Assembly (NCBI GenBank): GCA_022452035.1
Contig: JAKURV010000010.1
Location: 1 to 64,000 of the forward strand
Source of the DNA: Acidimicrobiales bacterium
GTDB lineage: Bacteria > Actinomycetota > Acidimicrobiia > Acidimicrobiales > MedAcidi-G1
Length of the DNA stretch: 64,000 bases
Direction of reading: 5' to 3'
Under the pieces are notes generated by a model. It had not been told where the DNA came from and ran no database searches. It saw nothing but the letters and a program-made list of their open reading frames with translations. This document shows, one piece after another, positions 24,905 through 28,568 of this stretch. How positions within the stretch are numbered: position 1 is the stretch's first letter; each line of letters begins with the position of its first letter. The translations under genes and the position numbers were made by a program.

Positions 24905-24978
24905 ACCCACGGCACCCGGTCTGCCGGGTCCCCTCGGACCCAGTGACTGGTCCTCCGGAGCGGCCTGTCAGCCGCCGG

Positions 24979-24984
24979 TACGCT
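24979..24984 (+). promoter_or_regulatory. -10 TACGCT for mutM
   Basis: Six-base gap to GTG 24991. This sets the mutM start, since the frame is open further upstream. Confidence 0.6.
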
Positions 24985-24990
24985 GCGACG

Positions 24991-25812
24991 GTGCCCGAGC
25001 TCCCCGAGGTCGAGACGGTACGCCGGCAACTCGATCCGCTGATCCGGGGGGCCGTAGTGGTCGCCGGGCGGGCCCACCCCTCGGCCAAGTTCGCCTCGGG
25101 CCCGGACGCCGTCGGCCACCGGTTCTCTAGCGTGGACCGTCGGGGCAAGTACCTGCTGTTGGGCCTAGAACCGGTCACCTCCCCGAGTGGGGCGCCGCTG
25201 GAACTGGTCGTCCACCTCGGGATGACCGGAGCTCTCTACGTAGACCCCTCCCCACCCGTCGACCCTTATGCACGGGCCGAATGGGAACTGGACGATGGTC
25301 GCTGGCTCTGGTTTCGGGACGTCCGACGGTTCGGGCGCACGGTGGTGGTCCTACGGGGCGACCACCGGTTGTTGCCCACTCTCCGGGATCTGGGACCAGA
25401 ACCCTTCGACCCGGCCCTGACCGGGGCGTCCTTCCACCGGGCCCTGGTCGGCAGCCGTCGCCGGGTCAAGACGCAACTCCTGTCCCAGCGCCTCGTTGCC
25501 GGAGTCGGCAACATCTACGCAGACGAGGCCCTCTGGCGGGCCGGCATCAACCCCGGAACCCGACGGGTCGGGCCCGAACGCGCTACCCGCCTCCTCAACC
25601 ACCTCCGGGACGTTCTGGCCGAGGCGCTGGACCACGGGGGAACCACCCTGCGCGACTACCGGACCCCGGACCGGTCAACCGGATCGAACCAGCACCGGTT
25701 GGATTGCTACGGACGTTCCGGTCTCCCCTGCCGAGAATGCGGTGGACTGCTGACCAGTCGGCCGATCGATCAGCGGACTACCACCTGGTGTCCCACCTGC
25801 CAGGCCCGGTGA
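24991..25812 (+). CDS. mutM: Formamidopyrimidine-DNA glycosylase
   Basis: 273 aa from GTG 24991; after Met removal the N-terminal Pro of PELPEVETVRRQ is the catalytic nucleophile, which confirms the start. Removes 8-oxoguanine and FaPy lesions and nicks the strand. RGKYLLLGL holds the beta-turn Lys, VAGVGNIYADEALW the helix-two-turn-helix, and CRECGGLL...TTTWCPTCQ the zinc finger. Complete and canonical. Confidence 0.97.
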   Translation: MPELPEVETVRRQLDPLIRGAVVVAGRAHPSAKFASGPDAVGHRFSSVDRRGKYLLLGLEPVTSPSGAPLELVVHLGMTGALYVDPSPPVDPYARAEWELDDGRWLWFRDVRRFGRTVVVLRGDHRLLPTLRDLGPEPFDPALTGASFHRALVGSRRRVKTQLLSQRLVAGVGNIYADEALWRAGINPGTRRVGPERATRLLNHLRDVLAEALDHGGTTLRDYRTPDRSTGSNQHRLDCYGRSGLPCRECGGLLTSRPIDQRTTTWCPTCQAR

Positions 25813-25885: not shown

Positions 25886-27598
25886 GTGGACGCCGCCCCC
25901 CGACGCCAACTCCGGGCGGTACTCCCCCTCGCCCTGGCCGTAGTAGCCCTGGCCGCCGTCCCGGCCCTGGCCGGTGCATTCGACGAGGAGATCGCTGCCC
26001 TCCGAGACGACATTGCCGACCACCACGACCTCATCGGCGACCAGGAAGACCTCATCGAGGACCACCACGACCTCATCGGCGACCAGGAAGACCTCATCGA
26101 GGACCACCACGATCGAATCGCCGAGCTGGAGGGCGATCTGGTTGATCTGGACCACCAGATTGCCGAGACCGACGAACTGATCGGCGACGAGGCCACTGAG
26201 CTGCGGATCCTGGAGGTGCGTCTCGAGCTGCTGGCCGACCGGTTCGCCCGGATCCTGACTTCCCGAGACGAGCCGGCCTTCCTCCATCGAACCATGGCGG
26301 TCGACGCCTACTTGCAGAACAACGAGCGGATGAACGCCGTGCTCACCCAATCGGCCCACCTCGCCAACGACGCCCTAGAGGGCGTTCGGGACCAGATAAT
26401 TTACGACTCGGTGATCGAGGAGGCCCAGAACCGCCTCGACCTCGTAGACGCTGAACTCCGGCTCGCCGCCGATTCGGTCCGGGGCCTCCATGCCCTGAAA
26501 GCGGAGGCCGAGCAACGGCGGGTCCAGGCCATGTCTTCTCGCTCCGCGACAGAGGACGCTAAGCCGGCCGTCCGGGAGGCCATCGGGCGGGTCTACGACG
26601 ACATCGCCGACGCCCGATCGACCATCGCCGACCTGGAGACCCGGATCCTGGAACAGGAGGCCCAGATCCCGGAACTGGAGGCCCAGATCCAGGAACTGGA
26701 AGCCCAAATCCAGGAATTTGAACGCCTGGACGTCACCCGGACGTGGGCTGGCCTACAGGGGAACGACATCCCACGGCCCGCCCTGGCCGTCAAAATCGAC
26801 AACGTGACTCGAGCCCACCCGCAGTCGGGGGTGAACCAAGCTGACGTCGTCTACGAGGAACTGGTGGAGGGTGGAGTGACGCGGCTGGTGGCCGTGTTCC
26901 AATCCACCTCTGCTGAGACGGTGGGACCGATCCGGTCGGCCCGGACGTCGGATCCGCAACTGCTGTCCGGCTTCGACCGGCCCCTGTTCGCCTACTCGGG
27001 AGCTAACCGGGGAACCCGTCAGGAACTGGCCACCTCGTCGATGGTCGACGTCGGTTACAGCGCCCTCACCGACGACTACTGGCGAGATAAGTCCCGTCGG
27101 CCGCCCCACAACCTCTACGTCTCGCCCGACACCCTCTGGGCCCACCACACCGACCGGACCGGGGTTCCCCCTGCACCGTTCCTTTACCGACATGTGGGCC
27201 AGGCTCATCACCCGGACGCCGAGGAAGCCGCCGGGGTGAACATCGACTTCGGCCTCACCGAGGTCGACTACGAGTGGGACGGCACCGGCTGGGCCCGCAC
27301 GCACGGTGGTAACCCCCACGTGGACCACTCCGGAACCCGGGTTGCGCCAGCCAACGTCGTGGTGCAGTTCATCTCCTATGGCTGGTCCAAAGCCGACTCC
27401 CGCTCCCCAGAGGCCCGTACCACAGGCTCGGGAGAGGCCTGGGTGTTCACCGACGGCCACGTAGTTCGAGGCCAGTGGAGCCGACCCGACGAGGCCCTCC
27501 CGGCCGTGTTCACAGCCGACGGGAAGCCCGTCCGGCTAACCCCGGGCAATACATGGGTCGCCCTTGCCAAGTCGGGAACCGCCGATTGGTGGGACTGA
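25886..27598 (+). CDS. Secreted coiled-coil protein with C-terminal DUF3048 (YerB-like)
   Basis: 570 aa, GTG start. Residues 1-30 are a signal peptide (AVLPLALAVVALAAVPALAGA). Residues 31-285 are almost all coiled coil, beginning with Asp/His-rich heptad-like repeats (HHDLIGDQEDLIED in tandem) and ending with EAQIPELEAQIQELEAQIQ. Residues ~300-570 are DUF3048: PALAVKIDNVTRAHPQSGVNQADVVYEELVEGG, VGPIRSAR and an extended beta region. DUF3048 proteins such as YerB are extracytoplasmic with unclear function. The long coiled coil resembles cell-wall hydrolase regulators (PcsB/RipA type) and suggests a cell-envelope role (inference). Confidence 0.85.
   Translation: MDAAPRRQLRAVLPLALAVVALAAVPALAGAFDEEIAALRDDIADHHDLIGDQEDLIEDHHDLIGDQEDLIEDHHDRIAELEGDLVDLDHQIAETDELIGDEATELRILEVRLELLADRFARILTSRDEPAFLHRTMAVDAYLQNNERMNAVLTQSAHLANDALEGVRDQIIYDSVIEEAQNRLDLVDAELRLAADSVRGLHALKAEAEQRRVQAMSSRSATEDAKPAVREAIGRVYDDIADARSTIADLETRILEQEAQIPELEAQIQELEAQIQEFERLDVTRTWAGLQGNDIPRPALAVKIDNVTRAHPQSGVNQADVVYEELVEGGVTRLVAVFQSTSAETVGPIRSARTSDPQLLSGFDRPLFAYSGANRGTRQELATSSMVDVGYSALTDDYWRDKSRRPPHNLYVSPDTLWAHHTDRTGVPPAPFLYRHVGQAHHPDAEEAAGVNIDFGLTEVDYEWDGTGWARTHGGNPHVDHSGTRVAPANVVVQFISYGWSKADSRSPEARTTGSGEAWVFTDGHVVRGQWSRPDEALPAVFTADGKPVRLTPGNTWVALAKSGTADWWD
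26018..26101 (+). repeat. Tandem 42-bp repeat in the coiled-coil region
   Basis: 26018-26059 and 26060-26101 are identical 42-bp units, each encoding 14 residues (DHHDLIGDQEDLIE), with a partial third unit after them. 14 residues equal four helical turns, so copy-number change keeps the coiled-coil register. Confidence 0.85.
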
Positions 27599-27638
27599 GC
27601 CCCGCCGAACCTCCAGGTCGGTTGGGTCAGGCCGGGGC
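27599..27638. terminator. Nested stem-loop between convergent DUF3048 gene and map
   Basis: Outer arms GCCCCG (27599-27604) and CGGGGC (27633-27638); inner hairpin CCGA-a-CC/GG-TCGG at 27605-27621. It starts right after the TGA of the upstream gene and runs into the end of map. No T-run. Confidence 0.4.
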
Positions 27639-28568
27639 GGCGACGGCGAACACGTCGGCCGGCACTGTGCCGTCCGCCGTCATCGTCAGCACTCGGATCC
27701 CGTCCTCGGTGACGAGCACCGTGTGCTCAAACTGGGCCGTTCGGCGACCATCCAAGGTGACCGCCGTCCAGTCGTCGTCCCATAGCCCGCACGCCGGATC
27801 TCCCAGGGTCAGCATGGGCTCGACGGTGAAGGTCATACCCGGAACCAGGATCGTCTGGGCACGCGGATCGTGGTAGTGCGGGATCTGCAGGCCGCTATGG
27901 AACTCGGTGCCAATTCCATGTCCGATGAACTCACGCACCACCCCCAGTCCGTGGCGGTTGGCGTGTCGTTCTATGGCCCGGCCGATGGCGTGGACTGGTT
28001 GCCCGGGCCCGGCCGCTGAGATCCCGAGTTCCATGGCGGCCCGGGTCTCAGCGATGAGACGCAGGTCGTGGTCGCTGACCTCGCCCACTGGAAAGGTGAC
28101 CGAGGTGTCCCCGTGGACGCCGTCCAGGTAGATGGTGACGTCAACGTTCACGATGTCGCCGTCGGCCAGCGGCCGACTGTCGGGTATCCCGTGGCAGATC
28201 ACCTCGTTGACTGAGGTACAGACCGACTTGGGGTAGCCGCGGTAGTTCAGTGGGCTGGGGTAGCCGCCGCGGGCCACCGTGGCTGCGTGCACGACCTCGT
28301 CCAGGTGGTCGGTAGTCACGCCGGGTACCACGTGGGGCCCCACCTCGAGCAGGATCCCAGCAGCTGCCTCACCGGCCCGACGCATCCGCTCCACCTCCTC
28401 GGGTGTACGCACTGACGACGAGGTCGACGGCCCGGGATCCCCGGAAAGGGCGTATGGGGGGCGTCCAATTCCGGCCGGTACAGGTCGGGTGGGGCTCTGG
28501 AGCCCCGGTCGGACCGGGGGTTCGGACCGGGGGACTAGGGGTGCTGGACGGCGCTTCCGCTTGGTCAC
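27627..28568 (-). CDS. map: Methionine aminopeptidase, type I with N-terminal extension
   Basis: 313 aa, GTG start. Removes the initiator Met. Metal ligands are visible: VNVDVTIYLDG and HGDTSVTFP (two Asp), GHGIGTEFHSG (His), FTVEPML and QFEHTVLV (two Glu). Residues 1-55 are a basic, Pro-rich extension (MTKRKRRPAP) as in mycobacterial MetAP1c. -10 TAGCAT lies six bases before the GTG. Confidence 0.95.
   Translation of the reverse strand: MTKRKRRPAPLVPRSEPPVRPGLQSPTRPVPAGIGRPPYALSGDPGPSTSSSVRTPEEVERMRRAGEAAAGILLEVGPHVVPGVTTDHLDEVVHAATVARGGYPSPLNYRGYPKSVCTSVNEVICHGIPDSRPLADGDIVNVDVTIYLDGVHGDTSVTFPVGEVSDHDLRLIAETRAAMELGISAAGPGQPVHAIGRAIERHANRHGLGVVREFIGHGIGTEFHSGLQIPHYHDPRAQTILVPGMTFTVEPMLTLGDPACGLWDDDWTAVTLDGRRTAQFEHTVLVTEDGIRVLTMTADGTVPADVFAVAAPA

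Follow-up and report, generated by a model that had tools for sequence, protein, structure and literature searches.

Matched heptad changes in a predicted coiled-coil hairpin fused to DUF3048 in the Acidimicrobiales

DUF3048 is a widespread domain with one solved structure found (PDB 2PSB), and the accessible part of the literature on the domain states that its function cannot be confidently assigned. A gene in a 64,000-nucleotide stretch of Acidimicrobiales DNA (the window, meaning the whole stretch that was analysed) joins this domain to a long, probably secreted coiled coil, which raises the question of what such a coil would do for DUF3048. A first-pass annotation had described the gene as a fusion of these two parts with a 42-bp tandem repeat. 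We call this type of fusion class A, and its features are given here with their positions in the window.

25886–27598, plus strand: coil-DUF3048 fusion gene (class A), 570 aa, GTG start, stop at 27596–27598
25886–25972, plus strand: Sec-type signal sequence without a lipobox cysteine, residues ~1–30 (from sequence, by eye)
25973–26296, plus strand: coil strand 1, residues 30–137; its 108 residues equal the family minimum of 87 plus 3 heptads (AlphaFold2 helix 33–126)
26018–26112, plus strand: 42-bp (2 × 21 bp) tandem repeat in strand 1, 2.3 copies, 100% match (Tandem Repeats Finder)
26273–26416, plus strand: hairpin tip, residues 130–177, best-conserved coil section
26297–26314, plus strand: tip motif A-V-D-A-Y-L, residues 138–143, common to coil-M23 hydrolases
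26363–26728, plus strand: coil strand 2 helix, residues 160–281 (AlphaFold2 helix)
26633–26716, plus strand: 21-bp tandem repeat in strand 2, 4.0 copies, 87% match (Tandem Repeats Finder)
26774–27151, plus strand: DUF3048 N-terminal domain PF11258, residues 297–422 (Pfam, E 6e-38)
27260–27559, plus strand: DUF3048 C-terminal domain PF17479, residues 459–558 (Pfam, E 3.6e-22)
24952–25812, plus strand: neighbouring gene for formamidopyrimidine-DNA glycosylase, Fpg (Pfam)
27627–28568, minus strand: neighbouring gene for an M24 peptidase of methionine aminopeptidase (MetAP) type (Pfam)

The reading frame is open as had been claimed, running on the plus strand from a GTG codon for 570 aa, and the fusion of a secreted coiled coil to DUF3048 is upheld by the ORF, the Pfam domains and the AlphaFold2 helices (residues 33–126, 128–154 and 160–281). 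The coil spans residues ~31–283, and in both arms the strongest hydrophobic period is 3.5 residues. The arms were modelled with ten-residue pLDDT blocks mostly at or above 90; around the tip pLDDT is 50–77 (residues 131–180) and 50–61 for residues 141–170. The scores of PF11258 (130.7 bits) and PF17479 (79.3 bits) both exceed the curated Pfam cut-offs of 25, and these DUF3048 domains alone stand above cut-off, with no NlpC/P60 or M23 hydrolase domain in the protein. The class A protein of the source genome has zero cysteine residues, and a lipobox-like pattern was found in 0 of 45 class A sequences over residues 9–45, a few of these sequences being cut at contig ends. The annotated 42-bp tandem repeat is present with a 100% match; its perfect unit consists of two 21-bp units, and Tandem Repeats Finder also reads the array at 26018–26112 as 21 bp × 4.6. 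The second array, at 26633–26716, had gone unmentioned. The observation itself is confirmed, and the 42-bp repeat is half of a larger two-strand pattern.

This pattern emerges when the two strands are measured across the source family, strand 1 as the stretch between the signal end and the tip motif, strand 2 as the stretch that runs on from the motif to the tryptophan opening DUF3048. In the 46 measurable genomes of 48, strand 1 is 87, 94, 101, 108, 115 or 122 residues long and strand 2 is 128, 135, 142, 149, 156 or 163 residues long, the window gene having a tip-to-junction length of 149, or the family minimum of 128 plus 3 heptads. In 45 of these 46 genomes, strand 2 is longer than strand 1 by exactly 41 residues. 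Permuting the lengths among genomes (10,000 runs of a shuffle that ignores relatedness) gave a mean of 16.0 matches and a maximum of 28. The two unmeasured genomes are G030, in which the coil runs off the contig end, and G016 (72% complete), which yielded no class A gene; for G024 and G004 the measurements come from loci L130 and L127, matched to them by contig or frame length. On a tree of the DUF3048 part, built from 41 of the 46 measured sequences plus two outgroups, about six separate matched length changes can be counted by eye: two in genus g5, one at the g2/g3 stem, one in G001 and one or two toward the window's own group. Beyond the source family, both strands of the f7 relative L151 are two heptads shorter. 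L153 and L155 are consistent with one heptad, a single residue at the N-terminal end being uncertain, and L154, from f80, departs from the exact matched-length rule. The sole breach within the family is G038, at 87/135, possibly through collapse of a 21-bp repeat.

In the G038 bin, two strains each contribute a version of the fusion gene (loci L116 and L106), one having a 94-residue and the other an 87-residue strand 1; the bin's contig coverages are near 1.4–1.5, and the second copy, with the 94-residue strand, is cut.

Because the strands differ by exactly 41 and change in whole-heptad steps, we read the coil as an antiparallel hairpin that lengthens in both strands. A self-paired hairpin with the tip and DUF3048 at opposite ends needs equal whole-heptad changes, and we see no other simple reason for them. 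Among the lengthened forms scanned (n = 21), 8 have 21-bp tandem arrays in both strands, 3 in one strand and 10 in neither; an array is also found in 5 of the 23 shortest forms. From these counts, growth by 21-bp duplication is likely in recent cases and is not visible in older ones. The arrays in the two strands of the window gene differ in sequence, so each strand probably grew by its own duplications. The first-pass annotation had proposed that the repeat lets the coil change length in register by a 14-residue unit. The change in register holds more strongly than claimed, because the second strand changes to match, while the unit has to be revised: the real step is 7 residues (21 bp).

The tip is the section of the coil with the highest conservation, and P130, A138, D140, Y142, N145, N150, V152, L153, Q155, S156, L164, R168, Y173 and I177 are invariant in 41 sequences. 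The motif A[IV]D[ASTV]Y[VIL] is found here in 44/44 class A proteins over 300 aa, and has a single occurrence in the 69,570 aa of window ORFs, the class A protein included. The source family has, besides, a secreted peptidase of coil-M23 type, for which 42 of 48 genomes give a long match, and the same motif lies at the turn in 30/30 coil-M23 peptidases of the family. Downstream of the shared motif, the tip loop of class A differs from that of hydrolases. All 27 coil-M23 coils measured have strands of 88/139 (30 loci fetched, 3 without a landmark); these 30 loci include none of genus g3, whose matches run up to 2 residues beyond the query span.

Profile-profile comparison by hhalign of 44 class A-type coils with 45 M23/NlpC-P60 hydrolase coils gave a probability of 95.2, an E-value of 2.8e-8 and a score of 60.9, in an alignment that sets tip on tip. 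As controls, 100 heptad-block permutations scored at most 31.9 (0/100 reached 60.9) and the reversed profile scored 25.0. The diverse hydrolases and f7/f80 members were added to the two sets after the weak result of a first comparison, with only 19 coil-M23 sequences, was known (probability 49.7, E 1.7e-4). The class A coil HMM, run over the source genome, reported neither a second gene nor the genome's own coil-M23 at E ≤ 10; the class-wide coil HMM search did match one M23 coil (G358, E 7.1e-5). Against PDB sequences the coil profile yielded generic coils, with no RipA, RipC or EnvC among the best 60 of 86 matches, and phmmer gave a weak match to EnvC (8tzk, E 0.026). The best structural matches of the hairpin model were SMC and chemoreceptor hairpins (Z 13.7–15.4), helical matches of a kind that can be generic, and weaker Foldseek matches were to the RipA N-domain (6ewy, E 0.016) and EnvC (8tzl, E 0.029). 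The Pfam model CC_PcsB (PF24568) matched 0/1 in the source genome at E ≤ 1 and missed its coil-M23 too, so this model is insensitive here. We consider a relationship between the class A hairpin and the docking coil of actinobacterial wall hydrolases likely, if short of proof; the PcsB/RipA-like look that the coil had been credited with stands, on profile-profile similarity with permuted and reversed controls. Given the profile likeness, the tip motif and the fixed 88/139 of coil-M23, DUF3048 seems to have been joined to a coil of wall-hydrolase origin, the length of the coil then becoming variable.

The domain at the other end of the coil appears intact. AlphaFold2 modelled DUF3048 with a pTM of 0.83, and the model matches YerB (2PSB) with a Z-score of 28.0 and an rmsd of 3.0 over 272 aligned residues. 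Besides 2PSB, none of 993 chains aligned matched at Z ≥ 2, and none of the viral models at E ≤ 0.001, results that fall short of demonstrating a unique fold. Two alignments were made for AlphaFold2, one of 36 sequences (leaving out L110, L116, L121, L127, L129, L130, L138 and L139) and one of 39 (leaving out L110, L116, L127, L129 and L130), the exclusions being due to stretches of N, truncated ends or a landmark that was not recognised. The polar residues E324, E328, R333, R350, S351, R353, R400, H408 and N409 are kept in both the family and the phylum sets (29 sequences each), columns that are biased because the filter, passed by 59 of 61 loci, itself requires R-x-x-R. Since these residues are kept, the fused domain is expected to be functional. 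Its R-S-A-R bears some likeness to the motifs of LytR-CpsA-Psr (LCP) proteins. An identity as an LCP phosphotransferase gained no support from an hhalign comparison with PF03816, which scored barely better than its reversed control (probability 0.5, E 0.12; reversed control E 0.4) and for which only 9 of 30 LCP loci passed the motif filter.

DUF3048 exceeds the Pfam cut-off in 48/48 genomes of the source family and turned up in 181 of 296 genomes drawn from the phylum, and in Bacillus subtilis among the controls. Among the matches listed, the phylum frames are mostly roughly 340–440 aa long, too short for such a coil. The first-pass reading depended on the coil being conserved: it was found in all 46 measurable class A genes of the source family and in two more families of the order. 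A coil-only profile matched 12 of 296 class genomes, of which five belong to the source family (source genome included), four to family f7 and one to f80; the remaining two matches are weak, one of them being an M23 peptidase coil. Five translated frames from f7 and f80 resemble coil-DUF3048, with L151, L153 and L154 confirmed by Pfam. A coil scan of named records returned 43 loci, titled Acidimicrobiales, Acidimicrobiaceae, Acidimicrobiia, Candidatus Microthrix or Actinomycetota, and including the marine actinobacterium MedAcidi-G1 and MedAcidi-G2B.

The source genome has two DUF3048 genes, the class A fusion and a coil-less form (class B) with a lipobox-like cysteine, identified by eye. Class B lies in the same cluster in 4/4 genomes examined (L078:8761-13539, from C13 of the source genome, L079, L080 and L081). 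By Pfam, this cluster encodes a CDP-alcohol phosphatidyltransferase, a Lip_A-type acyltransferase and a glycosyltransferase, and by eye it also holds pdxS/yebC/ruvAB-like genes. Such company hints that DUF3048 domains generally act on envelope lipids or lipid-linked sugars.

The surroundings of the fusion gene were compared over the ten window neighbours. The MetAP gene adjoins the fusion in 37/37 loci long enough to show it, and Fpg is directly upstream in 22 of 38 such loci, being displaced or not found elsewhere; by name, these two are housekeeping genes. In genera g2 and g3 (L124:7160-9870 and L121:7226-9867), two genes stand between fpg and the coil-DUF3048 gene, by eye a hydratase/OB-type protein and a thiolase-like protein. 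No wall hydrolase gene was found among the examined window neighbours of the fusion (three by Pfam, the others by eye). The suggestion that the protein regulates wall hydrolysis was not borne out, there being no hydrolase domain within it and no wall hydrolases among these neighbours, and the earlier reading of the protein is thus supported in part.

The source genome encodes an FtsX with an extracellular domain (FtsX_ECD, E 4.6e-18, Pfam on the frame). The ftsEX genes sit on another contig than the fusion gene (L159:9044-10640, from C29 of the source genome), flanked by prfB and a methyltransferase-like frame (by eye); no coil hydrolase gene lies beside ftsEX in this genome, the coil-M23 being on contig C6. 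We also considered loss of NlpC/P60 as a signal of the partner. NlpC/P60 is absent in 7/7 source-family and 2/2 f7 genomes and present in 7 of the other 8 (n = 17). The signal was rejected as weak: the cases are not phylogenetically independent, only 137 of 296 class genomes have NlpC/P60, and f80 has both NlpC/P60 and coil-DUF3048, which counts against it. In the class draw, NlpC/P60 was not found in 159 of 296 genomes, and the 137 positives include none of families f1 and f7.

What, then, might the hairpin do? We give about an even chance to the proposal that a docking hairpin of the hydrolase type has been put to a second use, keeping DUF3048 away from a membrane partner by a distance set in heptads, with FtsX as the first candidate for that partner. 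The export signal, the hairpin, the matched heptads, the relation of the coil and the intactness of DUF3048 are supported by the sequence comparisons and models above; the partner, the gating and the site of action we infer. The exported protein would form a long hairpin of antiparallel coiled coil whose open end carries DUF3048, and the tip would dock on an extracytoplasmic membrane partner. The hairpin would hold DUF3048 away from the membrane, by ~1.04 nm more or less for each heptad step; at 0.148 nm per residue, strand 1 comes to ~12.9–18.1 nm across the source family and 16 nm in the window protein. Matched whole-heptad changes would leave the packing intact and the N-terminus and DUF3048 in the same place relative to each other. 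In known relatives, the partner is considered to shift or free the domain that the coil bears at its far end, and DUF3048, as the far-end domain, would act on some wall or envelope component.

The choice of candidate follows a precedent. In Mycobacterium tuberculosis RipC, according to the accessible part of the source, the coil tip and its flanks bind the extracellular domain of FtsX, this binding is lost when the tip residues Y111/M112 are mutated, and the opposite end of the coil extends the enzyme toward the wall (PMC10694151). FtsX is the first candidate because the source genome encodes an FtsX with an extracellular domain and RipC tip residues bind FtsX. We think it most likely that the class A tip docks on FtsX or a similar membrane protein, DUF3048 being the effector held ~13–18 nm along the coil. 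Judged by where the motif lies and not by an alignment, Y142 of class A would be the counterpart of RipC Y111.

Several other explanations have to be weighed. A hydrolase-type docking coil could bind a different envelope protein instead of FtsX, as RipA of Corynebacteriales does, a possibility we rate as somewhat unlikely. The accessible text on RipA reports a coil that clamps the enzyme, an autoinhibition relieved by the septal membrane protein Cg1604, and independence of RipA-type coils from FtsX (PMC9897464). FtsX may, moreover, be taken already, because the source-family coil-M23 bears the same tip motif and could itself be the partner of FtsX, and the class A tip diverges downstream of that motif. 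However, no candidate partner gene was found beside the fusion, and the shared motif sits at the tip, which is the FtsX-binding site of RipC. It is less probable still that the coil does without a membrane partner, as a mere spacer or an inhibitory clamp on DUF3048 whose heptad matching follows from hairpin geometry. Class A tolerates length changes, any hairpin requires matched heptads, and RipA and RipC coils also clamp their C-terminal enzyme in the accessible accounts, yet a spacer has no need of a tip and the tip is the best-conserved section of the coil; we regard this explanation as unlikely.

The likeness to hydrolase coils could also be convergent, an unrelated heptad coil having acquired A-[IV]-D-x-Y at its turn by chance. 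Coiled coils have composition and period in common, and convergence would fit the generic coils returned by the PDB profile search (best 60 of 86), the failure of the class A HMM to report the coil-M23 of the source genome at E ≤ 10, and the 19-sequence hhalign, which alone is weak (probability 49.7, E 1.7e-4). It is made very improbable by the controls, none of the 100 heptad-block permutations and no reversed profile coming near the score of an alignment that puts tip on tip, by the motif in 44/44 class A and 30/30 coil-M23 proteins, and by the class-wide HMM match to the M23 coil of G358 (E 7.1e-5). Lastly, the matched lengths might be an artefact of landmarks or assembly. Assembly can matter, because the discordant G038 comes from a bin of ~1.4–1.5 coverage with a second strain copy that has a longer strand, but an artefact is scarcely credible when three separate landmarks give whole-heptad classes and agreement in 45/46 genomes, and when a second coil measured likewise, that of coil-M23, is invariant in 27/27.

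The two arm strands, lengthening together in seven-residue steps, suggest an adjustable ruler for the distance between DUF3048 and a membrane partner, and the natural length series of 87–122 residues would provide a handle on the spacing between effector and membrane. A wall-hydrolase-type coil on DUF3048 directs attention to some step in the wall or envelope that a membrane switch such as FtsX would control. From sequence alone, the rule of matched heptads also reveals a self-paired hairpin whose strands have to keep step. More broadly, coils of the FtsEX type may be a reusable module, with DUF3048 as an envelope effector placed and gated by FtsEX or a like partner and its distance tuned in matched heptads. 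We offer this as a tentative possibility; if true, it would be the first functional handle on DUF3048.

Several known systems come close to this arrangement. With the YerB/DUF3048 lipoproteins (PDB 2PSB), class A has in common PF11258 and PF17479, the fold and the conserved polar residues; one YerB counts among the lipoproteins in the accessible literature, whereas class A has no lipobox and bears a 250-residue hairpin instead. Hydrolases of the RipC/RipA/PcsB/CwlO type resemble class A in their secreted N-terminal antiparallel hairpin, with a similar profile and tip motif, but class A has DUF3048 in the C-terminal place and lacks NlpC/P60 and M23. The hairpin of class A varies by matched heptads, in contrast to the coil-M23 peptidase with its fixed 88/139 in 27 measured. 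EnvC, an adaptor whose coil binds FtsX, likewise has behind its coil hairpin a C-terminal domain which is not necessarily a hydrolase; EnvC ends in a LytM domain and class A in DUF3048. Among the titles and opening lines of abstracts listed on coil length and heptads in PcsB, CwlO and RipA (12 of 19), and on coil hydrolases of Acidimicrobiales, none reports a coil-DUF3048 fusion. SMC arms are long antiparallel hairpins like that of class A, and their lengths fall in discrete classes according to the accessible text of PMC5344682; SMC proteins are, however, cytoplasmic ATPases of another family. The cytoplasmic hairpins of chemoreceptors follow the same rule as class A, with a conserved tip and symmetric seven-residue length steps, and symmetric heptad insertions and deletions are described for them in the accessible part of PMC5907407, citing Alexander and Zhulin. 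Those are cytoplasmic signalling receptors with unrelated domains, whereas class A is extracytoplasmic and carries DUF3048. The components of class A are thus known, and what is new is a docking hairpin, probably of the hydrolase type, that has gained a different partner on its C-terminal side and evolves in length by matched heptads.
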